Shown piece after piece: positions 4,902 to 37,684 of a stretch of 40,170 bases of DNA. The stretch comes from Verrucomicrobiota bacterium (GTDB lineage: Bacteria; Verrucomicrobiota; Verrucomicrobiia; Verrucomicrobiales; DEV007): NCBI GenBank assembly GCA_002862135.1, contig PKCI01000162.1, positions 1 through 40,170 on the forward strand, given 5' to 3'. How positions within the stretch are numbered: the first letter of the stretch is position 1; the number at the start of each line of letters is the position of its first letter. The notes under the pieces were generated by a model. That model ran no database searches and had not been told where the DNA came from. It worked only from the letters and a program-made list of their open reading frames with translations. Position numbers and translations under genes: made by a program.

Positions 4902-5429
4902 TTGAAAAACGACCCATCATCTGAATCCGGTTCTGACCTTGGCGGTTTCTTCGCCTTTATTCTCCTGCGTCTTTGGCTCGCTCTGCGCGCGATCTTCACG
5001 GGCATCGAAAAATTCTCGGGTCAAAAATCAAGCGAGGTGGCTATCGTTGTCGACGGCGAACCCAACAGTTATGGGCTGACCTCTTCCGACTCCGACAAGG
5101 TCTACGGCCTGCAGTTTTACAAAGGCATTCCCGAAGCACTAGGAGATAAGCTGAAGGACGAGCCGCTTCTGCCAGGTTTCGCGATGGGTATTTTCGACGT
5201 TCTGCTGGGGCCTGTTCTGATCATCTCCGGTTTAACTCTTCTTCTTGGAATCGCAACCCGGATTTCTCTGTTTGTCCAGGGACTCCTCTACTGCTTCCTG
5301 ACGGTAGGCTTGATCCTTCTGAAGCAGGACGGCGGTATCGCGTGGCTGGCCATCCATGTGCTTCTTGTGGTCGTAGCCCTTATGAGTGTGAAGAACAATC
5401 GTTTCCAGCTCTTCGCCAAGAAATTGTAA
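4902..5429 (+). CDS. DoxX-like integral membrane protein
   Basis: A 175-residue hydrophobic protein with about four predicted membrane segments, arranged as in DoxX/DoxD-like proteins: an N-terminal segment with 'LRLWLALRAIFTGIEKFSG', a soluble loop, then 'GIFDVLLGPVLIISGLTLLLG', 'LFVQGLLYCFLTVGLIL' and a last segment before VKNNRFQLF. The central loop (roughly residues 45-90) is longer than in minimal DoxX proteins. The start is a TTG at 4902 without an obvious Shine-Dalgarno sequence; no better in-frame start precedes the first membrane segment. It lies 25 bases before a Gfo/Idh/MocA gene and is probably co-transcribed with it. DoxX-family function is poorly defined; a respiratory or redox role is possible. 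Confidence 0.7.
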   Translation: MKNDPSSESGSDLGGFFAFILLRLWLALRAIFTGIEKFSGQKSSEVAIVVDGEPNSYGLTSSDSDKVYGLQFYKGIPEALGDKLKDEPLLPGFAMGIFDVLLGPVLIISGLTLLLGIATRISLFVQGLLYCFLTVGLILLKQDGGIAWLAIHVLLVVVALMSVKNNRFQLFAKKL

Positions 5430-24852: not shown

Positions 24853-25782
24853 TTACGGTATGAATTTACCGAGCTTGATGGCTTCGGAGAATCCAGACTG
24901 CTCAAGCTGTTGCCTGACTTCTTGGCAATTCACTTCTGATAGCTGCGATTGCGGGAGACGAACGGGGCCAAGATCAAAGCCTAGTAGCGGCCAGATGACT
25001 TGTCGCACCGCCGCATGAAATGGCCCGGGTTGCCGGTCGAGTAGGCGAACCAATGAAATAGCCTTCCGCATTAAGGCATTGGCTCTTTCGGCATCACCAT
25101 CGTGGTGCGCTTCGATGATCTGGTTCCAGAGAGGAGCAGCAAATCCGTAGCAACTGCCCACGGCTCCAGTAGCTCCCATGGCGAGGGCTCCGAGAATCAT
25201 TTCGTCGGAACCGAAAAGAATATCAAACTTCCCACCGCTGACAGCTTGGCAGGCTCCCATCTCCGCGAGAAAAAAATCGCTGAACTTGATTCCTGCGAAG
25301 TTTGTAATGAGAGGATCTACCTTTTCCAGAAGCGTTGGCATGTCAAAGCGGACGCCGCTCAGCCGCGGGATATGATAGTAGTAATAGGGGAGGTCGGGAG
25401 CAGAGGCAGCGATCTCAGCAAGGCATTCAATTAAGATGTCGAGAGAAGTCGGTTTGAAATAGGTGGGTGGCAGCGATGAGATGGCATCCGCCCCGCACAG
25501 ACTGGCATGGCGGGCAAGCTCGCAAGCGGTGCTGAGACTGTTGTGCCCCACCTGGACCACAACAGGAAGGCGTCCGTCGGCGGCAGATACCGAAACTTCA
25601 GCGACTGCTTTTCGTTCTTCGATGGTGAGCGACTCACCTTCTCCGGTGCTGCCGCAGACATAAAAACCCGACACGCCCCTTTCGATCATGTGCTCGATCA
25701 TAGCCGGGATGAGGTCGAGGTTGACGGCACCATCGGGAGCAAATGGTGTGTAGGTCGCGGCAATGAGTCCGTTGAGTTTCAT
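24853..25782 (-). CDS. nanA: N-acetylneuraminate lyase-like (DHDPS superfamily) aldolase
   Basis: A 309-residue TIM-barrel class I aldolase, the usual family length. 'GLIAATYTPF' opens the barrel, 'GSTGEGESL' (44-52) binds the carboxylate, Tyr136 sits in the 'YHIP' signature, and the Schiff-base Lys166 is in 'FAGIKFSD'. The 'YYHIPRLSGV' and 'GIKFSD' motifs are those of neuraminate lyases (human NPL has YYHIPALTGV) rather than of dihydrodipicolinate synthase. Reaction: N-acetylneuraminate to N-acetylmannosamine and pyruvate, in the cytoplasm. It diverges from the gntR-type regulator with a palindrome between them, and neighbours a sialate esterase and a mutarotase-symporter. Another 2-keto-3-deoxy acid remains possible as substrate. 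Confidence 0.9.
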   Translation of the reverse strand: MKLNGLIAATYTPFAPDGAVNLDLIPAMIEHMIERGVSGFYVCGSTGEGESLTIEERKAVAEVSVSAADGRLPVVVQVGHNSLSTACELARHASLCGADAISSLPPTYFKPTSLDILIECLAEIAASAPDLPYYYYHIPRLSGVRFDMPTLLEKVDPLITNFAGIKFSDFFLAEMGACQAVSGGKFDILFGSDEMILGALAMGATGAVGSCYGFAAPLWNQIIEAHHDGDAERANALMRKAISLVRLLDRQPGPFHAAVRQVIWPLLGFDLGPVRLPQSQLSEVNCQEVRQQLEQSGFSEAIKLGKFIP

Positions 25783-25856
25783 GGTTGCGTGAAAATACCC
25801 AAACAGGTTTAGCTCAATGACGTGACCCTGTAGAGGCAGAAAGTCGATGACAGCAA

Positions 25857-25885
25857 TTGATCTCGGTGTTAGACAATGTTATAAC
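25857..25885 (+). promoter_or_regulatory. sigma-70-like promoter of the gntR-sulfatase operon
   Basis: TTGATC (25857-25862) and TATAAC (25880-25885) are separated by 17 bases, a near-consensus sigma-70 arrangement. The -10 lies 40 bases before ATG 25926 of the regulator gene and inside the palindrome described separately. Confidence 0.55.
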
Positions 25886-25887
25886 AT
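25876..25887. promoter_or_regulatory. palindromic operator candidate between nanA and gntR genes
   Basis: ATGTTATAACAT is a perfect 12-base palindrome. It has the nGT...ACn form often bound by FCD-type GntR regulators and overlaps the -10 box of the plus-strand promoter. It lies in the 143-base divergent gap, next to a gene for such a regulator, so self-repression lifted by a sialic acid-related ligand is a natural reading (inference). Confidence 0.55.
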
Positions 25888-25925
25888 AAGCGAACGCGCA
25901 AGGGCTTTTCAAGCTATTACGAATC

Positions 25926-26627
25926 ATGTCCACTGTATCGCTCAGCGAGAAAGCGTATCATCATATTCGGCGTCAAGTCTTTGCGGGAGAGTTGGCCCCG
26001 GGAGACCGCTTGGTGAATCGGACTCTCGCAACGGAGCTTGGCACCAGCTTTATCCCGGTTCGGGAAGCCATCAGCCGGTTGGCCAGTGAGGGATTGGTAG
26101 AGCAGGTCGCCGGCGCCGGAGCATTCGTGCGCACGTTCGATCGACAGGAAATTTCCGAGATTTACGACGTTCGTGAGTTGTTTGAGCCCTACGCGGCGGC
26201 CCAGGCGGCGCGCTTCATGACGGATCACGAAATTTCTGAGTTGGAGTCGCTGTTAAAAGAGTGGGAAACAGTCGGGGAAACGATTTTGTCGCGCAAGCGT
26301 GGCGCGACAGAGGTGGATCTCGATCGCTGGCTTGACTTGAATGAGCGATTTCACGAAGTGATGATCCGAGCTTCGAGAAATCATATGCTCTCAAAGATTA
26401 CCAAGGATGTGAACGTGCTCTCACAATGCTTCGCCGCTCATCGCGGTTCTCCTCGGCTACTGTCCGGAGAGACGGTGAAGTCCACGCTCGCTTCGCACCG
26501 TAAGTTGTATGAATTGCTGGCAGATCGCGATGCGACTCGTGCGGAAGCGTTGGTAAGAGACCAGTTGTCATTTGGGCGTGAGTCGGTACTCGACTTTTTT
26601 GATCAAAATCGGAATCGTTCAATTTGA
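25926..26627 (+). CDS. GntR-family (FadR/FCD subfamily) transcriptional regulator
   Basis: A 233-residue cytoplasmic regulator. Residues about 5-75 form the winged helix-turn-helix: 'AYHHIRRQVFAGELAPGDRLV', 'LATELGTSFIPVREAISRLASEGLVEQVAGAGAFV'. Residues about 80-215 form the all-helical FCD ligand domain: 'EIYDVRELFEPYAAAQAA', 'LNERFHEVMIRASRNHML' and 'SHRKLYELLADRDATRAEALVRDQL', with Asp/His positions typical of metal-binding FCD members. E. coli NanR belongs to the same subfamily. It is the first gene of the sulfatase/sialidase-like/symporter operon and is divergent from the lyase gene, so it most likely controls both arms. Its stop overlaps the next ATG by one base (TGATG). Confidence 0.9.
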   Translation: MSTVSLSEKAYHHIRRQVFAGELAPGDRLVNRTLATELGTSFIPVREAISRLASEGLVEQVAGAGAFVRTFDRQEISEIYDVRELFEPYAAAQAARFMTDHEISELESLLKEWETVGETILSRKRGATEVDLDRWLDLNERFHEVMIRASRNHMLSKITKDVNVLSQCFAAHRGSPRLLSGETVKSTLASHRKLYELLADRDATRAEALVRDQLSFGRESVLDFFDQNRNRSI

Positions 26628-28042
26628 TGAAACCCTTTTTCATAGCACTGGCAGCTTTGGCCGCCATGTCCATGTCTGAGGCGGCAGTGCGCCCCAATGT
26701 CATTCTCTTTCTAGTAGATGACCTGGGGTGGAGAGATCTTGGTTGCCAGGGTAGCGAGTATTACCAGACACCCAACATTGATGCCTTGGCGGAATCGGGT
26801 CTCAGGTTCACTGACGCTTATGCCGCTTGTGCGGTTTGTTCACCGACTAGAGCGGCTATCCTGACCGGAAAGTATCCTGCCCGCCTCATGTTGACGCAGT
26901 GGCTGCCGGCAGGGCGTTGGAGTGCCACAGAAAATAAGATGAAAGAAGGACGATTCCTTCGCTCCTTACCATTGGAAGAAGTGACACTGGCAGAAGCGCT
27001 GCGGGAAGAGGGGTATGCCACCTATCATGTCGGAAAGTGGCACCTCGGAGGTGAACCGTTTTCGATGCCGAGGCACCATGGATTTGACAAAAACGTGGGA
27101 GGTGATGACCATGGCGCCCCGGGCAGTTACTTTTATCCCTTTAAAGGAAAGTGGACCGTTCCGACAACCAGGGAAGCTGTCGCCAAGCAGGCATTCGATG
27201 GAGGTAGCGAAGGAGACTTCCTCACCGACCTGATGGCGGAAGAGGCAGGCAAGTTGATTCGCAGCTCGGGTGAGGATCCTTTCTTTCTCTATCTCCCGTT
27301 CTACGGAGTCCACAGCCCGCTTCAAGGGAAAAAGGACAAGGTCGAACGCTATGCTGCGATTCCGAAAAAAAAGCGGCAGGGCGATCCCAAGTATGCCGCC
27401 ATGGTGGAGTCGATCGACGATGCAGTGGGACATGTCATGCGAGTCGTGGAGGAACTGGGGGAAACCGAAAACACCCTCGTCATTTTCACGTCGGATAACG
27501 GGGGGTTGGCCAAGGCAACCAATCATGAGCCGCTGCGAGCTAACAAGGGCTCCCACTACGAAGGTGGCATCCGGGTGCCTTTCATCATGGCGGGTGCCGG
27601 CATCGGGCTGGATGCTCCAGACGGCGTCGACCTGCCAGTCACGTCCTGTGATCTCTACCCGACCGTTCTCGCTATCACCCGAACGCCGATGCGGAAGTCA
27701 GACGGAATGAACCTGGCGCCATTGGTGAGCGGTCTTGGTGAGGTCGAGTTTTCCCCGGACCGTCCCATCTTCTGGCACTATCCCCACTACAATCAGCATC
27801 CTTCGAGCGCCCCTATCTCCATCATCCGACGCGGGCCGTGGAAACTGATTGAGTTTCTCGATTCGGGGCAAGTGGAACTTTACCACCTCGGCGAAGACAT
27901 CGGGGAATCCCAGGACCTGTCCGAAGAGAAGCCAAAGCTGGCGGCTGAATTGTTGAAGCAACTGGCTGATTGGAAAAGAGAGGTCGGCGCGGACCCGATG
28001 CAGCCCAACCCTCAATACAAAAAAAAGGAGGTAGTGGAATGA
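26627..28042 (+). CDS. secreted arylsulfatase (type I, CSPTR)
   Basis: A 471-residue protein read from ATG 26627, which overlaps the regulator's stop. The signal peptide spans residues 1 to about 19 (MKPFFIALAALAAMSMSEA). 'RPNVILFLVDDLGWRDLGCQG' provides the metal-binding Asp pair 31-32. The formylglycine site is canonical, C71-S-P-T-R75, followed by AAILTGKYPARL. Further hallmarks are 'YHVGKWHLGG', 'GHVMRVVEELGETENTLVIFTSDNGG' and 'KGSHYEGGIRVPFIMAGAG'. The 'PARLMLTQWLPAG' stretch is typical of the arylsulfatase A/GalNAc-sulfatase-like group common in this phylum. It should hydrolyse a sulfate ester on an exposed sugar in the periplasm or outside. It overlaps the next sulfatase gene by four bases. 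Confidence 0.92.
   Translation: MKPFFIALAALAAMSMSEAAVRPNVILFLVDDLGWRDLGCQGSEYYQTPNIDALAESGLRFTDAYAACAVCSPTRAAILTGKYPARLMLTQWLPAGRWSATENKMKEGRFLRSLPLEEVTLAEALREEGYATYHVGKWHLGGEPFSMPRHHGFDKNVGGDDHGAPGSYFYPFKGKWTVPTTREAVAKQAFDGGSEGDFLTDLMAEEAGKLIRSSGEDPFFLYLPFYGVHSPLQGKKDKVERYAAIPKKKRQGDPKYAAMVESIDDAVGHVMRVVEELGETENTLVIFTSDNGGLAKATNHEPLRANKGSHYEGGIRVPFIMAGAGIGLDAPDGVDLPVTSCDLYPTVLAITRTPMRKSDGMNLAPLVSGLGEVEFSPDRPIFWHYPHYNQHPSSAPISIIRRGPWKLIEFLDSGQVELYHLGEDIGESQDLSEEKPKLAAELLKQLADWKREVGADPMQPNPQYKKKEVVE
28025..28032 (+). promoter_or_regulatory. strong Shine-Dalgarno sequence of the two-headed sulfatase
   Basis: AAGGAGGT lies six bases before ATG 28039, inside the 3' end of the preceding sulfatase gene. 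It is a near-perfect anti-16S match, rare in this window, and it decides the start of the 957-residue gene although its frame is open from 27970. Confidence 0.8.
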
Positions 28043-30912
28043 GGAAGCTGGTGGTCTGGTTTCTGGCCCCTGTGATCGGATGCTTCGCGGCAGCTTCGGA
28101 ACGTCCGAATATTCTCCTCATTGTATCCGAGGACAATGGGCCTGAACTGGGATGCTACGGTCAACCTTATGTGGAGACGCCGGTTCTCGACGAGTTGGCG
28201 GCAAGCGGTATTCGTTATGAACGAGCCTATGTCGCGCAGGCAGGTTGCAGTCAGTCGCGAGCTGCCCTGCTGACCGGTCTCTACCCGCATCAGAACGGTC
28301 AGATTGGATTGGCCACGTGGAAGTTTGGACTCTACCACGGAGCGACGCCCAACCTGGTGCGGTCGCTCAAGGGGGCAGGCTATCGCACCGGCATCATCGG
28401 AAAGCTTCATGTCAATCCGGAGGAAGCCTTCCCTTTTGACTTCAAAGCGATTCCAACGTCGAATTTCGCCCGAAAGAATCAGGATCAGTATGCGGTCGAA
28501 GCTAAGGAATTTATCGAGGCGTCCGATGAGCCATTTTTCCTTAGCGTGAATTATCCTGATGCGCATCGGCCATTTTTGGCTGAGGTGGACGGCGTGCCGG
28601 CGAAGCCTCTTACAGAGGGAGATGTGACACCGCTGGACTACTTTGGGCTCGATACGCCTGAATTGCGTCGCCAGACCGCGGACTACCTCAACTGCATGAG
28701 CCGTCTCGATGTGCAGGTAGGAGAATTGCTGGAGGTGTTGCAAGCCTCCGGAAAGGCGGATGATACGCTCATCATTTACATGGGAGACCACGGGGCCGAC
28801 ATGTTGCGCGGTAAACGAACCTCGTATGAGGGGGGAGTCAGGATACCGTTGATTCTTTCGTGGGCAGGAAAGATCAAGCCGGAGCAGGAACGAAGCGAGT
28901 TGGTCTCCACGCTCGACTTGATGCCGACCTTGTTGAGAGTCGCGAGAGCCGACCTGGTTGACTATTTGCCTGGTCGAGATCTGGTTCCGATGTTCGACGG
29001 GTCAAAAGTCGAGTGGCGCACTTACCTTTTTACCGAGTATCACACTCATTCCGCTCATAACTACTACCCGCAACGAACGGTGCGGGATGATCGCTACAAG
29101 TTGATTTGTAATTTGATGCCGGGCGAGGTCAATCCAGGCTATGAATTCACGCGGCGAAAGTTCTTTGAGGAGAAACGTGAAGTCGTTGCGGCGGCGCCGA
29201 GCCCAGTAAGGTCTGCTTATGAGCTGATGGAGCGACCTCCGGCCTATGAACTCTACGACCTTGAGGCTGATCCTTACGAATTCATCAACCTGGCGGAGAA
29301 CGAAGAGTACGCGGAAGTGCTCGCTCGATTGCAGGGGGAACTGGAGCGCTGGCGCGACGAGACGAATGATCCAATGCGAGATTCGGAGAATATTCTTAGG
29401 CTTAAGGCGGAGATCGATGCTTGTCTCGACGGTGTCGATGCGTCCAAGGCGAAGTTGAACCTGACCTATCCGGAATACTTTTTCTCTGCCTCCGCGGCCA
29501 TACCTCAAGGGAACGGGAAGAACGTGCTCTTCATTGCGATCGACGATTTGCGTCCGGCCTTGGGATGTTTCGGTGACTCGGTGGCGATGACGCCCCATAT
29601 CGATGCGCTTGCCCGTCGGGGGGTGATTTTCAATCGTGCCTATTGCCAGTTGGCCGTCTGTGCCCCTTCACGGCACTCCGTGCTGACCGGGCTTCGACCG
29701 GATACAATCAAGGTTTGGGACTTGGGAACGCATTTTCGTGAGGCGCTTCCGGACGCGGTGACCTTACCGCAAGCGTTTAAGAAGGCGGGATATTCGACTC
29801 GGTCGATTGGGAAGATTCTTCACGGAAGTGGAGCGCCTTCTCAGGATCCTCCCTCATGGTCGGTTGATCCCATACTCGATACCAACCGGGCGCCGGAACT
29901 GCGTTATGCCCTGGCCGAGAACCTTAATGGCTCGGGTTTGAAGCGAAATAGCTCAGAGGCTGCATCCGTCGAGGATGATTACTATATCGACGGACTGATC
30001 TGCCGGGAAACGATCACCGCGCTAAAGGGATATGCGGAATCGGGAGAGCCCTTTTTTCTTGCGGTAGGCTTCAAGAAGCCGCACTTGCCGTTTTGTGCTC
30101 CGAAGCGCTATTGGGACCTCTATGATAGGGAAGCCATTTCGTTGCCTGCTTCGATGGCTCATCCCAAGAAAGCTCCTGAATTTGCCGTTCGCAGCTGGAG
30201 GGAGTTGGAAGGATACCGCGATATCGCGAAGAACGGCTCGCTAACCGTGGCCCAGGTCAAAGAGCTACGTCATGGCTACTATGCGTGTGTGAGCTACATT
30301 GACGCTCAGGTTGGGAAGTTGATGAAAACGCTGGAGGCGTCCGGACTCATTGAAACTACGGTCGTCTGCCTCTGGGGAGACCATGGGTTTCACCTTGGAG
30401 AGCAGGGACTTTGGACCAAGGCCAATAACTACGAGTGGTCGACGCGAGTGCCGCTCCTGATAGCTGATCCGGGTCAGGAACCGGGAAAAACCGAGGCACT
30501 CGTAGAGTTGGTCGATATTTACCCAACCCTGGTCGAGCTTTGTGAGCTGCCGATTGGCAGTCAGCTTGAAGGACAGAGCCTCATTCCTTTGCTGAGAAAT
30601 CCTCATCAGCCGTGGGCGGAGTCAGCCATGAGCCAGTATCCCCGGTCAAAACAGGGGAATCGTCACAGTCGCGATGGAGATTTCATGGGTTACACCATTC
30701 GAACACGCGATTACCGCTATGTGGAATGGCGAAACTCTGACACGGGTGATGCTGTGGCGGTGGAGCTTTACGATCACCTCAAAGATCCTGACGAAATCGC
30801 GAATGTAGCTCAGAACTCTGCCTATCATCCTATTCTCAAGCGTCATGAGGCACTGCTTCGCCTCAGTCTGGAATCTTCCCGTTCGGCATCACGAAACCTT
30901 TCTTTACCTTAA
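28039..30912 (+). CDS. two-headed sulfatase: SGSH-like + IDS-like fusion
   Basis: A 957-residue protein, twice normal sulfatase length, with one signal peptide (about 1-19). Head 1 (about 22-470) resembles N-sulfoglucosamine sulfohydrolase: 'RPNILLIVSEDNGPELGCYG', C70-S-Q-S-R74, 'LTGLYPHQNGQIGLAT', 'YRTGIIGKLHV', 'PFDF' and 'YPQRTVRDDRYKLICNLMPG'. Head 2 (about 493-957) resembles iduronate-2-sulfatase: 'NVLFIAIDDLRPALGCFGD', C541-A-P-S-R545, 'RPDTIKVWDL', 'FKKAGYSTRSIGKILH' and 'LWGDHGFHLGEQGLW'. Both keep cysteine sites and metal ligands, so both may be active. The human counterparts act on heparan sulfate. ATGA overlap with the gene before. The frame is continuous, so this is a true fusion and not a missed stop. 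Confidence 0.9.
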   Translation: MRKLVVWFLAPVIGCFAAASERPNILLIVSEDNGPELGCYGQPYVETPVLDELAASGIRYERAYVAQAGCSQSRAALLTGLYPHQNGQIGLATWKFGLYHGATPNLVRSLKGAGYRTGIIGKLHVNPEEAFPFDFKAIPTSNFARKNQDQYAVEAKEFIEASDEPFFLSVNYPDAHRPFLAEVDGVPAKPLTEGDVTPLDYFGLDTPELRRQTADYLNCMSRLDVQVGELLEVLQASGKADDTLIIYMGDHGADMLRGKRTSYEGGVRIPLILSWAGKIKPEQERSELVSTLDLMPTLLRVARADLVDYLPGRDLVPMFDGSKVEWRTYLFTEYHTHSAHNYYPQRTVRDDRYKLICNLMPGEVNPGYEFTRRKFFEEKREVVAAAPSPVRSAYELMERPPAYELYDLEADPYEFINLAENEEYAEVLARLQGELERWRDETNDPMRDSENILRLKAEIDACLDGVDASKAKLNLTYPEYFFSASAAIPQGNGKNVLFIAIDDLRPALGCFGDSVAMTPHIDALARRGVIFNRAYCQLAVCAPSRHSVLTGLRPDTIKVWDLGTHFREALPDAVTLPQAFKKAGYSTRSIGKILHGSGAPSQDPPSWSVDPILDTNRAPELRYALAENLNGSGLKRNSSEAASVEDDYYIDGLICRETITALKGYAESGEPFFLAVGFKKPHLPFCAPKRYWDLYDREAISLPASMAHPKKAPEFAVRSWRELEGYRDIAKNGSLTVAQVKELRHGYYACVSYIDAQVGKLMKTLEASGLIETTVVCLWGDHGFHLGEQGLWTKANNYEWSTRVPLLIADPGQEPGKTEALVELVDIYPTLVELCELPIGSQLEGQSLIPLLRNPHQPWAESAMSQYPRSKQGNRHSRDGDFMGYTIRTRDYRYVEWRNSDTGDAVAVELYDHLKDPDEIANVAQNSAYHPILKRHEALLRLSLESSRSASRNLSLP

Positions 30913-30928
30913 TAAATCTCCAACATTG

Positions 30929-32092
30929 ATGAAACCCTCATTTCATATCAGTCAATTAATCTCGCTTAGTGGAATCATCCTCTGGTTCGGTCAAACCGGT
31001 CTCTCGGAAAATGTTCTAGAAGCAAGCCTTGATCCGTTTCTCGGTGACGCTGTTGTCGAAATTCAAACCGTCTTTGAGGATGAACGATTTCCCAACGTGG
31101 TCGTTTCGACGGAAGGCACTGTCCTCGCCACTTTTGGTAAAAAAACCTTGCGCGTTTGCCGGAGCGAAGATGGCGGCAAGACCTGGGGCGAACCGATACG
31201 GATCGCGGAATCGGGAATTCACGGAGGAGGAACGACGGTGGATGAGAACACCGGGGATATTCTTGTGTTTGTGGAGGATGAGCATCCACCGGCACCACTG
31301 ACTGTCTACCGCAGTCAGGATGATGGTAAAACCTGGCTGGTCGATAACGTTATCATTCATTCGGATTCAGAGGGACGTGAGGTCTCAATGCACATGAATG
31401 AACATGGTATCACCTTGCGCCATGGGCAGCATAAAGGACGTCTGCTGAGGCCATCGCGTCATTACGGTGAGGGGAATCGTCCCGAAAGTTTGTTCCCGAC
31501 CCACTTTACCAACGCCATCTACAGCGATGACGGTGGTAAGACCTGGAAGGCCAGCGATCCATTCCCGCACATGGGGACTGGTGAGGCCGCAGTGGCGGAG
31601 TTGTCAGATGGGCGTATTTATTACAACTCCCGTCGCCACTGGGCGCCTGAAAATGTTGATTCGCGCCGTCGTTGGATTGCATGGAGCGATGATGGGGGTG
31701 AAACCTGGCAGGATGGTGGTATCTGTGAAGTGCTTCCTGATGGGGCTCAGGACAGGGACTACGGCTGCATGGGGGGATTGGTCAGATTACCGGTGAAAGG
31801 TCGGGATATTCTTCTATACAGTAACTGCGATAGCGATACTGGTCGAAAGCAGGGCACGATCTGGGGCAGTTTTGACGGTGGAAAAACCTGGCCGATTAAG
31901 CGTCTCATTTACGAAGGTCAGTTTGCTTATTCATCCCTGAACGTGGGCCGCCCGGAAACTGGTTCTGAAGGCTGGGTCTACCTCCATGTTGAAAGTGAAG
32001 GGGGTTCAAAAGTGGCGCGCTTCAATCTGAGTTGGCTGCTGGAAGGAGAATTGACGGGCGACGGACACATTCCAGTTGAGCTGGCTCGATGA
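30929..32092 (+). CDS. sialidase-like BNR-repeat (GH33-type) secreted protein
   Basis: A 387-residue protein read from ATG 30929, giving a signal peptide (about 1-24); the frame is open further upstream only through overlap with the previous gene. Five Asp-box repeats mark a six-bladed propeller: SEDGGKTW (79-86), SQDDGKTW (129-136), SDDGGKTW (199-206), SDDGGETW (253-260) and SFDGGKTW (314-321). GH33-like residues are Arg53 ('RFP' for the RIP motif), Glu219 and Arg235 ('GEAAVAELSDGRIYYNSR'), Arg306 and Tyr334 ('FAYSSL'). The loop that carries the acid/base Asp in classical sialidases seems short, with no obvious Asp between Arg53 and the first Asp box. Release of sialic acid is likely but unproven. 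Confidence 0.75.
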   Translation: MKPSFHISQLISLSGIILWFGQTGLSENVLEASLDPFLGDAVVEIQTVFEDERFPNVVVSTEGTVLATFGKKTLRVCRSEDGGKTWGEPIRIAESGIHGGGTTVDENTGDILVFVEDEHPPAPLTVYRSQDDGKTWLVDNVIIHSDSEGREVSMHMNEHGITLRHGQHKGRLLRPSRHYGEGNRPESLFPTHFTNAIYSDDGGKTWKASDPFPHMGTGEAAVAELSDGRIYYNSRRHWAPENVDSRRRWIAWSDDGGETWQDGGICEVLPDGAQDRDYGCMGGLVRLPVKGRDILLYSNCDSDTGRKQGTIWGSFDGGKTWPIKRLIYEGQFAYSSLNVGRPETGSEGWVYLHVESEGGSKVARFNLSWLLEGELTGDGHIPVELAR

Positions 32093-33606
32093 AACAACTT
32101 GTGTTGATCGCGGCTGCCTCGGTTAGCCTGTTGGGATCGCAGCTCACGGGGGAAGTTGCGCGCCCCAATGTGTTGTTCCTGGCGGTGGATGACCTGAAGG
32201 ACTGGGTCACTTGCCTCGGCGGATATGAGGGCACGGTTCAAACGCCGAACATTGATCGTCTCGCGGCGGGAGGGACGTTGTTCACCAATGCACACTGCCC
32301 CTCACCTAAGTGCGCACCGTCACGTGCAGCGATTATGACGGGACTGATGCCTTCGACCACGGGGCTCTATGACAACGGGAACTGGTGGTATGCTAATTAT
32401 CCTGACGTAACCACTATCCCGGTGCACTTCATGCGGCATGGTTATAAAGTGGTGGGTGCTGGAAAAATCTTTCATCACACTGCCGGTAATCATCCTCCCA
32501 ACCAGTGGGACGATTTTCAAAAGTTGCTCTTTCGTGATGATCCCTGGTTTCGCGGGGTGAAGTTGAACTACCCCTGGTCGGATCACGAGCCCTATCCGAA
32601 AGGCTTCCCTTTCAGTGGTGTGAAAGGTCTCGGGCATGAGAACGACTGGGGATCACTGGGATACAAGGAGGCGGACTACGATGATTCCAAGTCGGTGACT
32701 TACGCAGTGGAATTCCTCAAGCAGGAGCGAAACGGACCTTTCTTCCTGGCCTGCGGTTTGTTTCGACCGCACCTGCCCTGGTATGTGCCTCAACCGTATT
32801 TTGATCGGTATCCGCTCGATGAAGTCGTCTTGCCGAAGGTGAGGGAGGATGATCTCAAAGATGTGCCCAACGCTGGGAAGGCATTTGCTAAGGCCCGTAA
32901 GAAAGACCTTGAGACGATTCTAGAGGCGGATCAATACCGGGAGGCGGTGCAAGCCTACCTCGCCAGCATCACTTATGCCGATGCTCAGTTGGGACGAGTG
33001 CTGGAGGCGCTGGAAGAGAGCAGTCAGGCTGACAACACCGTGGTGGTGCTTTGGTCAGACCACGGTTGGCATCTCGGGGAGAAGGGGCACTGGCACAAGA
33101 CCACGCTGTGGGAAGAAGCCACTCGTGTACCGTTCATCATTTCGGCTCCGGGGTATGAACCAGCCCGTTGCTCCCGGCCCGTTAGTCTGGTGGATCTCTT
33201 TCCGACCTTAAATGAATTGTGTGGGCTGCGGCTTGATGACGCTCATGACGGCGAAAGCTTGGTGCCTTTGCTGGAGGATCCTGAAGCATCTCTTGATCGC
33301 GTTGGAGTCATGATCCAATACAAGCCGGGCAATGTCGCGATCCGGAGCGACCGCTTTCGTTACATCCGTTACGCCGACGGCAGTGTGGAATTCTATGATC
33401 ACGCGGCCGATCCCTATGAGTGGAAGAATCTGGTAGACGACAATGCCATCAGCGAGGCAAAATCTGCCTTGGCGCATTTCGCAACCTTTGAGTGGGCGGA
33501 GCCGTCTTCAGCTAAGAAGAAATTTGACTTCGATCCTGAGACCTTCACCTGGACGGAAAAGTTGACTGGTCGAGTGATTGACGGGAAGGCCCCGGTGACC
33601 CCCTGA
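32089..33606 (+). CDS. secreted iduronate-2-sulfatase-like sulfatase (CAPSR)
   Basis: A 505-residue protein with a signal peptide (about 1-21) and a four-base overlap with the upstream BNR gene. 'RPNVLFLAVDDLKDWVTCLGGYEG' starts the domain with Asp34-Asp35. The formylglycine site is C75-A-P-S-R79, then AAIMTGLMPSTTGLY. 'YKVVGAGKIFHH' and 'VVVLWSDHGWHLGEKGHWHKTTLWEEATRVPFI' are typical of the iduronate-2-sulfatase-like branch. The C-terminus has 'RYIRYADGSVEFYDHAADPYEWKNL'. It should remove a sulfate ester from a sugar outside the inner membrane; the exact sugar cannot be read from sequence. The next sulfatase gene starts five bases after its stop. Confidence 0.9.
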   Translation: MKQLVLIAAASVSLLGSQLTGEVARPNVLFLAVDDLKDWVTCLGGYEGTVQTPNIDRLAAGGTLFTNAHCPSPKCAPSRAAIMTGLMPSTTGLYDNGNWWYANYPDVTTIPVHFMRHGYKVVGAGKIFHHTAGNHPPNQWDDFQKLLFRDDPWFRGVKLNYPWSDHEPYPKGFPFSGVKGLGHENDWGSLGYKEADYDDSKSVTYAVEFLKQERNGPFFLACGLFRPHLPWYVPQPYFDRYPLDEVVLPKVREDDLKDVPNAGKAFAKARKKDLETILEADQYREAVQAYLASITYADAQLGRVLEALEESSQADNTVVVLWSDHGWHLGEKGHWHKTTLWEEATRVPFIISAPGYEPARCSRPVSLVDLFPTLNELCGLRLDDAHDGESLVPLLEDPEASLDRVGVMIQYKPGNVAIRSDRFRYIRYADGSVEFYDHAADPYEWKNLVDDNAISEAKSALAHFATFEWAEPSSAKKKFDFDPETFTWTEKLTGRVIDGKAPVTP

Positions 33607-33611
33607 TAAAC

Positions 33612-35048
33612 ATGAGGATTAGACGAACAGGATTCATGATGTGGTTCGTCTTGAGCGTAGGTTTGAGCTATCTGGTCAGCCCGTCGTTCGCGAAGCCCCG
33701 CCCCGATGTGCTCTTCGTTGCGATCGATGACATGAACGACTGGATCTCGCTCCTGGATCCGGAATCACCAATCCGAACCCCTAACCTGGAGCGTCTCGCC
33801 AAGCGAGGCACTCTCTTCAAGAGGGCCTATTGCGCGTCGCCTGCCTGCAATCCTTCCCGCGTGGCGACCCTGACGGGACTGCGTCCGACATCCACCGGGG
33901 TCTATGGCAACAAGAGCAATTGGCGCAAGGTGCTGCCGGGGCGAAAGACGATCATGCAGCAGTTCCGGGCTGCCGGCTATGAAGTGAAGGGCGCCGGGAA
34001 AATTTTTCATCATCATCTCGACGGTGCCTTCCACGACGACGCGTCATTCGATGAGTTTCAGCCCATGGCGCCGCAGAATATGCCGGAGGACAAGCTGAAT
34101 GGTGCGCCGCAGTATGGTTCGCCTAATACCGACTGGGGCGAGTGGCCTTCGGAAGAAACGGACACGATCGATTTCAAGACGGCTGACTACTGCATCGAGG
34201 TGTTGCAGGGAGATCGAAGTGAGGAACCTCTTTTTCTCGCCTGCGGGATTTTCAAGCCGCACTCACCGTTCTTTGCGCCCGCAATCTACCATGAACCTTA
34301 TCGCGGGATGGATCTGCCTGAGCGGAATCCTGATGACTGGAACGACCTGCCTTCCGGAGCCGATGATCTGATGAATTCAAAGCGTTGGTTCTGGACTGGG
34401 ATGATGGAAGTGGAAGATCAATCTTCGGGATCCTATCAGCGGTTCATTGAAGCTTACGCGGCTTGTTGTGCCTTTGCTGATGCTCAGTTGGGGCGCGTCC
34501 TCGACGCGCTTGATGCCAGTCCTCGAGGGAAGGAAACTATCGTGGTTCTGTGGTCTGATCATGGTTTTCACCTCGGCGAGAAAGATCACATCGAAAAGTT
34601 TGCGCTTTGGGAGAAAGCCAATCGTATTCCGATGATTGTGGTGGCACCTGGGGTGACGACTCCTGGAAGTGTCTGTAATGCCCCGGTCGATTTGACGGCC
34701 TTGTATCCCACCTTGCTGGAGTTGGCGGGGTTACCAGAAGACAGCAGGGCGGATGGTGACAGCCTTGTTCCTCAATTGAAGAATCCCGACCACGAACGAC
34801 CGTCACCGGCGCTGATGACTTACGGGAGGGGTAATCACGCGGTGCGCACAAAGAGGTGGCGCTACATCCGCTACGCCGATGGCACCGAGGAACTTTACGA
34901 TCATGAGTTGGATCCTGAGGAATGGACCAACGTGGCTTCTGCTCCGGAGCATGTTGCTGTCTTGAAAGAACACCGGCAGTGGCTCTTCATGGTTGAGGCT
35001 GATCCTGTCGCTGATTTAAAACGAAAACCCAAGATCAAAAGTAAATGA
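33612..35048 (+). CDS. secreted iduronate-2-sulfatase-like sulfatase (CNPSR)
   Basis: A 478-residue protein with a signal peptide (about 1-27, ending SFAK). 'PDVLFVAIDDMNDWISLL' holds Asp39-Asp40. The formylglycine site is C79-N-P-S-R83, followed by VATLTGLRPTSTGVYGN. 'YEVKGAGKIFHHH', 'LACGIFKPHSPFF' and 'VVLWSDHGFHLGEKDHIEKFALWEKANRIPM' match the preceding gene's product closely in order and spacing, so the two are probably old tandem duplicates that have diverged in substrate. The C-terminus includes 'RYIRYADGTEELYDHELDPEEW'. It overlaps the mutarotase-symporter gene by four bases (ATGA). Confidence 0.9.
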   Translation: MRIRRTGFMMWFVLSVGLSYLVSPSFAKPRPDVLFVAIDDMNDWISLLDPESPIRTPNLERLAKRGTLFKRAYCASPACNPSRVATLTGLRPTSTGVYGNKSNWRKVLPGRKTIMQQFRAAGYEVKGAGKIFHHHLDGAFHDDASFDEFQPMAPQNMPEDKLNGAPQYGSPNTDWGEWPSEETDTIDFKTADYCIEVLQGDRSEEPLFLACGIFKPHSPFFAPAIYHEPYRGMDLPERNPDDWNDLPSGADDLMNSKRWFWTGMMEVEDQSSGSYQRFIEAYAACCAFADAQLGRVLDALDASPRGKETIVVLWSDHGFHLGEKDHIEKFALWEKANRIPMIVVAPGVTTPGSVCNAPVDLTALYPTLLELAGLPEDSRADGDSLVPQLKNPDHERPSPALMTYGRGNHAVRTKRWRYIRYADGTEELYDHELDPEEWTNVASAPEHVAVLKEHRQWLFMVEADPVADLKRKPKIKSK

Positions 35049-37684
35049 TGAGCCGATTTGGAACTGCGCTGGCAGGGATGATCCTCTTGGTGGCCAATGT
35101 GGTCGACGCTGCCGAAAACGTGACTGTCGGTGCGGGGGGGATTCAATGGCACTCACTCCCAAAGCTTCCTGACGATCATGGGCTAGCTGGTCCGTTTGCC
35201 GGGAAAATCGGGGGATCGCTGGTCGTTGCCGGTGGGGCTAATTTCCCGGAAGCACCGCCGTGGGAAGGCGGAAAAAAGGTCTGGCACGATCGCATTTTTG
35301 TTTACTCAACCGAGCAGAATTCGTGGATGGTTTCAGAGATGCGGCTCCCCCAACCTCTAGCTTACGGGGTGTCGCTGACGCTGCCCGGGCGTGCTTCTGT
35401 GGTGGTGCTGGGAGGCACTGATCAGGAGAACGTTCCCACCACGACCGCGCTGGAACTGCGATTAGTCTCGGGGAACGTGATCCTGACCGAACTGCCTTCG
35501 CTCCCCGTGCCCCTAGCTGAAATGAGTGGGGAGGCGATAGGCAACACGCTTTACCTTTTTTCGGGACGAACCAGCGGAAAAACATCTCAGACCCTGTTTC
35601 AAATCGACCTCGACGCCGTCAAGCCCCAGTGGAAGGCTTTGCCGTGGCCCGGTGAGGCCAGAGGGCGTATGCATTCCATTGCGGGGAAGCAAGGTGAGAA
35701 GCTCTACTGGTTTGGGGGTCGCGACCGGATGTCCGAAGATTCCATTCCCTTTCCCGAAGACCGCATGGAACCCGAGAGCCTCGATTTTCTCAGGGACTGC
35801 TATCGCTTCGATCCTGTCAGTGGTGAGTGGGAGCGATTGGCGGATCTTCCGGCCGGTCTTTCCGCGGCCCCGTCCCCCGCGGTTTCAATCGGAGACGCGC
35901 ACCTTCTCGTAGTTGGCGGTGTGACCGTCGATTTCCTGAAGGAACAGCTGGCGGCACGACCTGAGCTGAATGGACAAGGTCATGAGCACCCTGGCTTTGC
36001 GAAGACAATCTGGGGGTATCACATAGTGACCGACACCTGGGCGCCAGTGGATGAAATCCCCTCTGAGTTCGACGCGCCCGTGACGGTCCCGGTGGTGATG
36101 GGAGATGAGAATGTCTTCGTAATTCCGTCAGGAGAAATCAGACCCGGGGTTCGGACGCGGCAGGTCATTCGCGGACACGTGGAGGTCAATCGAGCTTCTT
36201 TCGGAATGGTAAACTGGATCGTAGTTGCGGTTTATCTTCTCGCCATGGTCGCGATTGGCTACGGCTTCATGAGGCGGGCGTCTTCCGCTTCGACCGACAC
36301 CTATTTCCGTGGAGGGCAGCAGGTGCCATGGTGGGTCGCGGGTCTCTCTATCTTTGCGACGATGCTGTCGGCTATCACCTTCATGGCGATTCCAGCGAAG
36401 GCTTATGCCGAAAACCTCAACTTCTGGATTGGCCAGTGGGCCATGGTACTGATCGTGCCATTGGTTGTTTTCTTTTATCTTCCTTATTTCCGAAAGCTGA
36501 ATATCACATCGGCATACGAGTTTCTCGAGAATCGCTTTAATCTAGCGTCTCGCTTAGTCGCCAGTTCATTGTTCATGCTCTTTCATATTGGGCGAGTCGC
36601 TATCGTGCTCTATCTGCCGGCTCTGGCACTATCTAGTGCCACCGATATCAATATCTATGCCGCTATTCTCGCTATTGGAGTGCTCTGCATCATCTATACC
36701 GTCATGGGTGGGATTGAAGCGGTAGTGTGGACGGATGCGATTCAAGCGCTGGTTCTGTTAGGTGGAGCGCTCCTGTGCCTGTTTATCGTGATTTTTAATC
36801 TCGAGGGTGGCATGAGCACGCTTATCGATATCGCCCGGGAAGATGGAAAGGGCCTCGTCGCTGAGTGGGATTTCCTCGACTTCAGTTCCTCGACCAACTC
36901 CGGCTGGGTCATCTTTCTCGGGTTTCTCTTTGCATCGCTGCCATCGTACACGGCAGGGCAGGATGTGGTGCAGCGATATGTGACCACTCCAAGTGAGAAA
37001 GCGGCAGCGCGTTCCCTCTGGCTGAACCTACCCATGACCTTGTTGGGCTCCTTGCTCTTCTTCGGCCTCGGAACCGCACTCTATGCCTTCTACAAATCCC
37101 AGCCGGAACTGCTTGATCCCACGCTGGAACGGAATGACGGGATCTTACCGTTCTTCATCCTGCAGAACCTGCCGGTAGGAGTTGCCGGGCTGATTGTTGC
37201 CGGCATCTTTGCGGCGGCACAGTCGACGATTTCCAGTTCGTTAAACTCGGTGGCGACTGCGTTCGTGACGGATTACTACGGTCGCATCCTGAAACCGGAA
37301 TCGCCTGATCCGGCACGTCTCACGGTAGCGCGGCGAGTTGTGATCGCTTTGGGTCTTGTCGGAATTGTGCTTGCCTCTTGGATTGCAGCGACGGGGATGA
37401 AGTCGGCCTTTGATGCGTTCAATACCTTCATCGGCATGGCCCTGGGTCCGGTGGGTGGCATGTTTTTCCTCGGCGTTTTTGTGAAGCGATCATCAGGCTC
37501 TGCTGCCTTGATCGGAGCGGTCATAGGATTCCTGACCGTGTTAACGCTTCACTTCGCGAGACAGGTCGGAGCGATCGATCTCTGGCCGGTTCTTAACGGC
37601 ATGATCAGTTTTACTGTTACAGCTGTCGTGGGCGCGCTGGTTGGACTCTCACGGCGAACAAGCGCACCATCAGATTGCGGTTAG
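35045..37684 (+). CDS. cyclically permuted mutarotase fused to a sodium:solute symporter
   Basis: An 879-residue protein with an N-terminal signal peptide (about 1-22). Residues about 25-375 form a Kelch propeller. Its opening segments ('GLAGPFAGKIGGSLVVAGGANFP', 'LPQPLAYGVSL', 'VVVLGGTD') match the C-terminal part of E. coli sialate mutarotase NanM, and later ones ('GRMHSIAG...LYWFGGRD') the N-terminal part, so the propeller is circularly permuted as in TIGR03548. Residues about 387-870 are a sodium:solute symporter: 'YFRGGQQVPWWVAGLSIFATMLSAITFM', the signature 'GGIEAVVWTDAIQALVL' and many membrane helices. The propeller should lie outside, converting sialic acid anomers for the transporter. 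It is the last gene of the operon; its stop overlaps the convergent aldolase stop. Confidence 0.88.
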   Translation: MMSRFGTALAGMILLVANVVDAAENVTVGAGGIQWHSLPKLPDDHGLAGPFAGKIGGSLVVAGGANFPEAPPWEGGKKVWHDRIFVYSTEQNSWMVSEMRLPQPLAYGVSLTLPGRASVVVLGGTDQENVPTTTALELRLVSGNVILTELPSLPVPLAEMSGEAIGNTLYLFSGRTSGKTSQTLFQIDLDAVKPQWKALPWPGEARGRMHSIAGKQGEKLYWFGGRDRMSEDSIPFPEDRMEPESLDFLRDCYRFDPVSGEWERLADLPAGLSAAPSPAVSIGDAHLLVVGGVTVDFLKEQLAARPELNGQGHEHPGFAKTIWGYHIVTDTWAPVDEIPSEFDAPVTVPVVMGDENVFVIPSGEIRPGVRTRQVIRGHVEVNRASFGMVNWIVVAVYLLAMVAIGYGFMRRASSASTDTYFRGGQQVPWWVAGLSIFATMLSAITFMAIPAKAYAENLNFWIGQWAMVLIVPLVVFFYLPYFRKLNITSAYEFLENRFNLASRLVASSLFMLFHIGRVAIVLYLPALALSSATDINIYAAILAIGVLCIIYTVMGGIEAVVWTDAIQALVLLGGALLCLFIVIFNLEGGMSTLIDIAREDGKGLVAEWDFLDFSSSTNSGWVIFLGFLFASLPSYTAGQDVVQRYVTTPSEKAAARSLWLNLPMTLLGSLLFFGLGTALYAFYKSQPELLDPTLERNDGILPFFILQNLPVGVAGLIVAGIFAAAQSTISSSLNSVATAFVTDYYGRILKPESPDPARLTVARRVVIALGLVGIVLASWIAATGMKSAFDAFNTFIGMALGPVGGMFFLGVFVKRSSGSAALIGAVIGFLTVLTLHFARQVGAIDLWPVLNGMISFTVTAVVGALVGLSRRTSAPSDCG

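Follow-up and report, generated by a model that had tools for sequence, protein, structure and literature searches.

A conserved palindrome as the probable operator of a GntR/FCD regulator at a sulfatase-sialidase locus of an uncultured Akkermansiaceae-like bacterium

We analyzed the intergenic gap upstream of a GntR-family regulator gene in a 40,170-nt stretch of Verrucomicrobiota DNA (hereafter, the window). The regulator gene lies at the front of a run of genes on the plus strand, and a gene of the N-acetylneuraminate lyase/DHDPS family lies divergently on the minus strand. The genes and the sequence features between them are as follows.

24853-25782, minus strand: divergent gene of the N-acetylneuraminate lyase/DHDPS family, scoring below the NCBIfam equivalog cut-offs
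25847-25852, plus strand: ATGACA, proposed -35 box of the regulator promoter (in 9 of 12 orthologous gaps, TGACA precedes the core by 21-24 nt)
25857-25862, plus strand: TTGATC, a doubtful -35 box (2 of 12 gaps have TTG here)
25867-25875, plus strand: TGTTAGACA, conserved columns, proposed extended -10 box (TGn TAGACA, 17-bp spacer from ATGACA) and/or upstream half-site
25876-25887, no strand: palindrome ATGTTATAACAT, holding the 10-bp putative core operator TGTTATAACA at 25877-25886
25891-25901, plus strand: CGAACGCGCAA, block conserved at a constant distance just after the core
25926-26627, plus strand: GntR-family regulator with an FCD domain, 233 residues, the presumed binder
26624-37684, plus strand: six more genes (open reading frames, Pfam), presumed to form an operon with the regulator

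Both the N-terminal GntR winged helix-turn-helix (HTH) domain (PF00392, 60.6 bits) and the C-terminal FCD domain (PF07729, 76.3 bits) of the regulator scored above their cut-offs, which places the protein among the GntR/FCD regulators. Its recognition helix reads SFIPVRE, with Arg and Phe at the positions equivalent to 35 and 45 of FadR, and its nearest named orthologue is from Akkermansiaceae bacterium UBA1506, which probably places the window in that genus-level group. The genes that follow encode, in order, a sulfatase, a double sulfatase, a sialidase-like BNR protein, two sulfatases, and a NanM-kelch/SSF transporter fusion; they overlap or nearly abut wherever the starts are unambiguous (that of the double sulfatase is uncertain). 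The double sulfatase (28108-30912) is a single reading frame with two tandem sulfatase domains, and the last gene (35045-37684, 879 residues) joins a NanM-type kelch mutarotase/epimerase part to an SSF sodium symporter. The core of the palindrome stands 39 bases before the regulator gene, and the seven-gene sulfatase-sialidase-transporter run headed by the regulator is likely the main target of the operator.

The letters reported by the initial annotation were confirmed, namely the palindrome at 25876-25887 and two hexamers separated by 17 bases, TTGATC at 25857-25862 and TATAAC at 25880-25885. At up to two mismatches, ATGTTATAACAT matches one site in the window, the exact copy itself; this count proves little alone, because at least one such match also arose in 31 of 100 shuffled sequences. 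The source genome assembly (3.48 Mb, 91.8% complete) holds no second exact copy, and at up to two mismatches it contains 19 sites, counting the exact one, compared to 31 for the reversed control. A wider regulon of degenerate palindrome copies, for which these counts give no excess, was ruled out. An Rfam scan of the window gave no match at the gathering thresholds. The evidence for the palindrome as a functional site is its conservation between genomes, not its copy number in the window.

For the comparison of orthologous gaps, 56 genomes including the window's own were searched, and 10 others carried an orthologue of the regulator (67-89% identity); a further locus, L033 (82% identity), brought the set to 12 gaps. 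The core TGTTATAACA was exact in 11 of them, and the exception, G028, carries TGCTATAACA followed by TGCTATAGCA. Nine of the ten core columns, the outer TGT and ACA included, are invariant, and the tenth varies in one of the 12 gaps. Loss of the palindrome from orthologous gaps had been named beforehand as one of two observations that would refute it as an operator, and the palindrome was instead retained. Five gaps in which no lyase gene turned up next to the regulator also keep it, in exact form in L008, L009, L012, and L033 and as a variant in L011, so that the palindrome goes with the regulator; lyase absence was scored by tblastn with matches covering more than 35% of the lyase, the L009 contig ends ~0.8 kb upstream of the regulator, and the stretch upstream of the regulator in L033 reads as broken or chimeric.

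Across 33 genomes of the genus, the core occurs in 16 copies, compared to 79 for the reversed-pattern control (summed over genomes). Twelve of the 16 copies stand at operons of FCD regulators, ten in orthologue gaps and two in the divergent promoters of operons with an FCD paralogue of ~41% identity (L050:8858 and L051:7098). These two paralogues have Val at position 45, and the exact core lies at the front of their operons, which by eye contain Gfo/Idh-like and SDR genes and, in L051, an HpcH-like gene. The four remaining exact copies have no FCD-regulator neighbor and are probably due to chance: by eye, those in L066 and L069 lie inside coding sequence and that in L067 just past a gene end. 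The copy in L068, 12 nt before an SDR-like gene, may be a real target. The conservation in 11 of 12 gaps and the location of 12 of the 16 genus-wide copies at FCD operons led us to conclude that TGTTATAACA is very probably the operator of the adjacent GntR/FCD regulator.

To place this site among others of its family, 95 FCD loci were gathered by similarity to the window's regulator, the HTH was located by profile, and two duplicates were dropped. A perfect TATA-centered palindrome of at least 10 bp was found within 150 nt upstream of the HTH match for 47 of the 93 regulators, whereas 100 dinucleotide shuffles averaged 0.25 and never exceeded 3. The other 46 regulators had no such palindrome near the gene, and 31 of these have Arg at position 45. 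Among the upstream windows of other genes, 12 of 222 held a TATA-centered palindrome; ten of these were the same operator word shared with a divergent or neighboring gene, and two belonged to loci fetched for holding the word. The assignment of the palindrome to its FCD-type neighbor, as first proposed from the window alone, was thus strengthened by orthologue conservation, genus-wide rarity, and this survey.

The palindromes of the survey differ with the recognition helix of the regulator. Helix SFIPVRE of the window's regulator goes with TGTTATAACA, SRTPVRE with CTGGTATACCAG or ATTGTATACAAT, and SIIPVRE with TCATATATGA; SRVPVRE occurs mostly with ACGGTATACCGT-type sites and SATPVRE mostly with CTCTATAGAG. 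In the SATPVRE group (L014, L018, L019, L021, L022, L026, and L027), CTCTATAGAG is centered 23-25 nt before the HTH match and 11-13 nt ahead of the position that aligns with the first codon, which suggests very short leaders. A phylum-wide search of 387 genomes (E up to 1e-18), in which 29 of the 39 matches were examined and three were already in the set, added six palindromes: two CCGGTATACCGG with Arg, three TTCTATAGAA with Pro or Ser, and one TTATATATAA with Pro at position 45. No regulator with Phe or Val at this position was among these 29 matches. None of the three Val45 regulators has a palindrome immediately before its own gene. The Val45 locus L049 has, at 4932-4951, a tandem near-match pair CGTTATAACATGGTATAACA only.

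In total, 53 of 119 regulators had a TATA-centered palindrome. Base 3 was G in 21 of 21 palindromes of regulators with Arg or Lys at FadR position 45, and T, C, or A in 31 of 32 with other residues, a rule noticed and counted partly on the same loci, with six palindromes coming from the later set. Clustering at 60% HTH identity left 5/5 against 5/5 clusters (Fisher p 0.008), and at 50% identity the test lost power because four clusters remained (p 0.25). The two nominal exceptions, L033 and L073, each have a second palindrome. The pairing of Phe with T is not absolute, since G028, which has Phe45, carries TGCTATAACA/TGCTATAGCA. At position 35, counted by palindrome, all 16 cases with Arg had G, all 3 with Asp had C, and 13 of 14 with Gly had T. 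Gln, Leu, His, and in part Ala or Ser are likewise found with G at base 4, so that Arg35 is dispensable for this base and the rule runs one way. These patterns point to a one-residue/one-base code in the FCD regulators, which in our judgment has an even chance of being right. By this code, FadR position 45 would set base 3 of the 10-bp NNNTATANNN (Arg/Lys with G, Phe/Val with T, Ala/Pro/Ser with C, and Ile with A), position 35 would help to set base 4 (Arg with G, Asp with C, and Gly with T), and repeated replacement of the 'key' arginine would have produced orthogonal operators in Verrucomicrobiota. If true, the operators of uncharacterised FCD regulators would be predictable from the protein alone. 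The survey documents natural FCD regulators without the arginine reported as key for the operator G, with a matching base change, and FCD specificity becomes testable by a one-residue/one-base-pair swap, such as Phe45Arg against TGGTATACCA (base 3 T to G in both arms).

Three regulators appeared as alignments among the PDB sequence matches of the window's regulator. Thermotoga maritima UxaR (TM0439, PDB 3sxy) alone among them has Arg35 and Phe45 in the same columns. The second match, 6z74, we take to be Atu1419 of Agrobacterium fabrum. UxaR is an FCD regulator of a polysaccharide locus for which DNA binding was measured, and the letters of its operator were sought in the text of that report and not found there (PMC3750489).

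The window's system is of a known kind with a changed recognition pair. Operators of the FadR subfamily have the consensus TKGT-N2/3-ACMA, with Arg and G or Asp and C paired at the FadR-35 equivalent, and Arg-45 of FadR is tabulated as a specific contact to G (Suvorova et al. 2015, PMC4494728, Table 1); the words 'position 38' (equal to FadR 45) are absent from the main text of that paper, which set NanR and BioR aside as having motifs outside the consensus. The window's site has the same 10-bp frame, an A/T-rich palindrome in the regulator's own intergenic gap, and here too Arg at FadR-35 occurs with G, as Asp does with C in relatives. Unlike in TKGT, the G is T in 11 of 12 orthologous gaps. 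The GT...AC core named in the initial annotation for sites of FCD-type regulators was not supported in this case: GT and AC are 4 nt apart, and the TKGT-N2-ACMA frame fits only with the conserved G as T. The site is also closer to the regulator gene than to the structural gene, opposite to the tendency reported for the subfamily (PMC4494728). Atu1419, a VanR-type FCD regulator, likewise binds a 10-bp TATA-centered palindrome, ATGTATACAT, in the same frame and has its own promoter among its targets; in crystals its Arg45 contacts G3, and in work that included gel shifts changing G3 abolished binding (PMC7797058). The window's site instead has T at base 3 and its regulator Phe, and whereas Atu1419 is a tetramer that loops DNA between two palindromes (PMC7797058), one exact site was seen in the window.

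Escherichia coli NanR is an FCD regulator beside a sialic-acid lyase gene, and its half-site TGGTA is in the same frame. The earlier statement that the palindrome differs from the GGTATA repeats of NanR is true but overstated, as the first repeat of the nanA operator (GGTATA)3, TGGTATAACA, is identical to the core at 9 of 10 positions. The arrangement is different, with a single palindrome GTTATAAC here against three direct repeats there; GGTATA does not occur in the regulator gap, which lacks the at least two direct repeats of a NanR operator. The regulator scored 40.8 bits with the NCBIfam NanR model NF003011 (cut-off 260). NanR Arg69, aligned by eye with FadR Arg45, corresponds to Phe in the window's regulator, which has no counterpart of the NanR N-terminal extension. 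The NanR metal ligands Asp172/His176/His222/His244 correspond to Asn/His/His/Gln in all 12 orthologues. By analogy, the window's regulator may still bind metal, because Ps5454 can have Asn in place of Asp and three ligands are used in DgoR (PMC7674646). As these ligands are only partly kept, Neu5Ac itself is not to be assumed as the ligand.

The best explanation overall, which we consider highly probable, is that a regulator dimer sits on the core over the promoter start, hinders transcription of the operon, and is released by a product of sialoglycan breakdown. It draws on the conservation of the core with its regulator, its scarcity at other places, its recurrence with paralogues, and residue-base covariation, as read from genome comparisons. 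We infer direct binding, with one winged helix on each half-site TGTTA (NNNTA before the center and TANNN after it), where Arg at FadR-35 would pair with G (base 4 from the center) and Phe at FadR-45 with T (base 3). The bound dimer would cover the start point of an ATGACA-N17-TAGACA promoter (25847-25875), and would thereby repress rather than activate the regulator gene and the sulfatase, sialidase, and transporter genes behind it. The gene content suggests that the dimer is presumably released by a product of sialoglycan breakdown. This reading gives a probable operator to a sulfatase/sialidase locus in an uncultured Akkermansiaceae-like group. A literature search by titles and abstract beginnings, covering a minority of subscription papers, found no description of TGTTATAACA as a GntR site among the papers listed, and no regulator site for a sulfatase/sialidase locus of this kind was seen among the titles of the open-licence papers listed.

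The same palindrome may also control the divergent lyase gene by covering its promoter, a reading to which we give slightly less than an even chance. On the minus strand, TTGAAA-N18-TATGTT (25912-25883) has a -10 box that runs into the palindrome, and this pair was the sole promoter-like match in a consensus scan of 25700-26000 (shuffle mean 0.3). A lyase gene lies beside the regulator in seven gaps, that of the window included, where its start is ~100 nt from the operator center. In the six lyase genes measured this distance is 60-108 nt, with ~100 nt in four and either 60 or 108 nt in the remaining pair. However, the TTGAAA/TATGTT pair occurs in just 2 of 12 gaps, those of the window and of L003, its closest relative, and the palindrome is kept in gaps that showed no lyase gene next to the regulator. 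The consensus scan and the comparison of 12 gaps established no lyase promoter; dual control of the regulator operon and the lyase gene may occur.

The conserved flanks of the core could alternatively make it the strongest of several half-sites one helical turn apart, in an extended NanR-like operator bound cooperatively by two or three dimers; we hold this tentatively, as the less probable reading. Upstream, the columns G, T, A, and A at -9, -7, -6, and -4 are conserved in 10-11 of the 12 rows at a constant distance from the core, and TGTTAGACA includes a possible half-site, TGTTA, that precedes the core by exactly one turn (10 bp). This TGTTA is present in 6 of 12 gaps, with near-matches in four more, and downstream AAC stands in half-site register 10 bp after the core (+16 to +18) in 8 of 12. 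By eye, G028 has three tandem 10-mers and L049 two. E. coli NanR needs at least two repeats (PMC8012715), and extra half-sites 7-12 nt from GntR sites have been reported (PMC4494728). Against this, the upstream copy is equally readable as a -10 box and is missing in L006 and L009, and the regulator, whose winged HTH begins at residue 6, has no NanR-type cooperative N-terminal extension. In the downstream block CGAACGCGCAA, C at +18 is found in 12 of 12 gaps and the bases at +14 to +17 and +21 to +24 in 9-11. Besides the invariant C, 8 of the 11 columns of this block are kept at that level; the block was not seen beside the two paralogue sites. It may be a weak half-site GAACg one turn after the core, a leader element, or part of a divergent promoter.

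In the initial annotation the palindrome was placed on the -10 box of a TTGATC-N17-TATAAC promoter, which the repressor would block; such a promoter would start transcription at ~25891-25893. We consider this layout unlikely. TATAAC is a good -10 box at the right 17-base spacing, and the published palindromes of Atu1419 also overlap -10 boxes (PMC7797058). A sigma-70 promoter with the palindrome as its -10 box would need a conserved -35 hexamer 17 nt upstream of TATAAC, and TTG is found there in 2 of 12 gaps, whereas TGACA, with a background of ~0.0007 per position, stands in 9 of 12 at 21-24 nt ahead of the core. In the window, ATGACA (25847-25852) is separated by 17 bp from TAGACA (25870-25875), which is preceded by TGT. 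The TTGATC-TATAAC pair was not listed in the consensus scan of 25700-26000, and neither was the favored pair, because the scan demanded T at the sixth base of the -10 box. Since TTGATC is not conserved and TGACA and the extended TGnTA box upstream are mostly kept, the operator is more likely to lie on the start point of the regulator promoter, which would fall ~7 bases past TAGACA, inside the palindrome (25881-25883). TATAAC in the core could also serve as a (second) -10 box.

It is improbable that the palindrome is the site of another factor and that the regulator binds elsewhere in the gap. The gap does contain further conserved blocks, namely CGAACGCGCAA and a dispersed inverted repeat at 25804-25830. 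However, the core recurs with the ~41% identical paralogues in otherwise different gene surroundings, where by eye the downstream block was not seen, and base 3 tracks the recognition-helix residue across FCD regulators. That the conservation is merely that of a promoter, with TATAAC in a palindrome formed by chance, is very improbable given the near-invariance of all ten core columns out to the outer TGT/ACA, and TATA-centered palindromes stood before other genes only at shared or preselected sites.

The 27-bp inverted repeat at 25804-25830 (consensus CAGGGTTnnnTCnnTnACnTnACCCTG) was dropped as a candidate second operator and from the operator finding because it is dispersed, occurring in divergent, tandem, and convergent gaps alike. 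It is present in 32 of the 33 genus genomes, with up to 140 forward matches per genome at up to three mismatches compared to 0-3 for the reversed control, and the source genome has 30 forward and 33 reverse matches. Among 23 copies examined in the source genome, 16 were scored as intergenic (six divergent, six tandem, and four convergent) and seven lay inside crude open reading frames. In six loci measured, the repeat begins 70-80 nt before the start of the operator core. It may be a REP-like element or the site of a global regulator.
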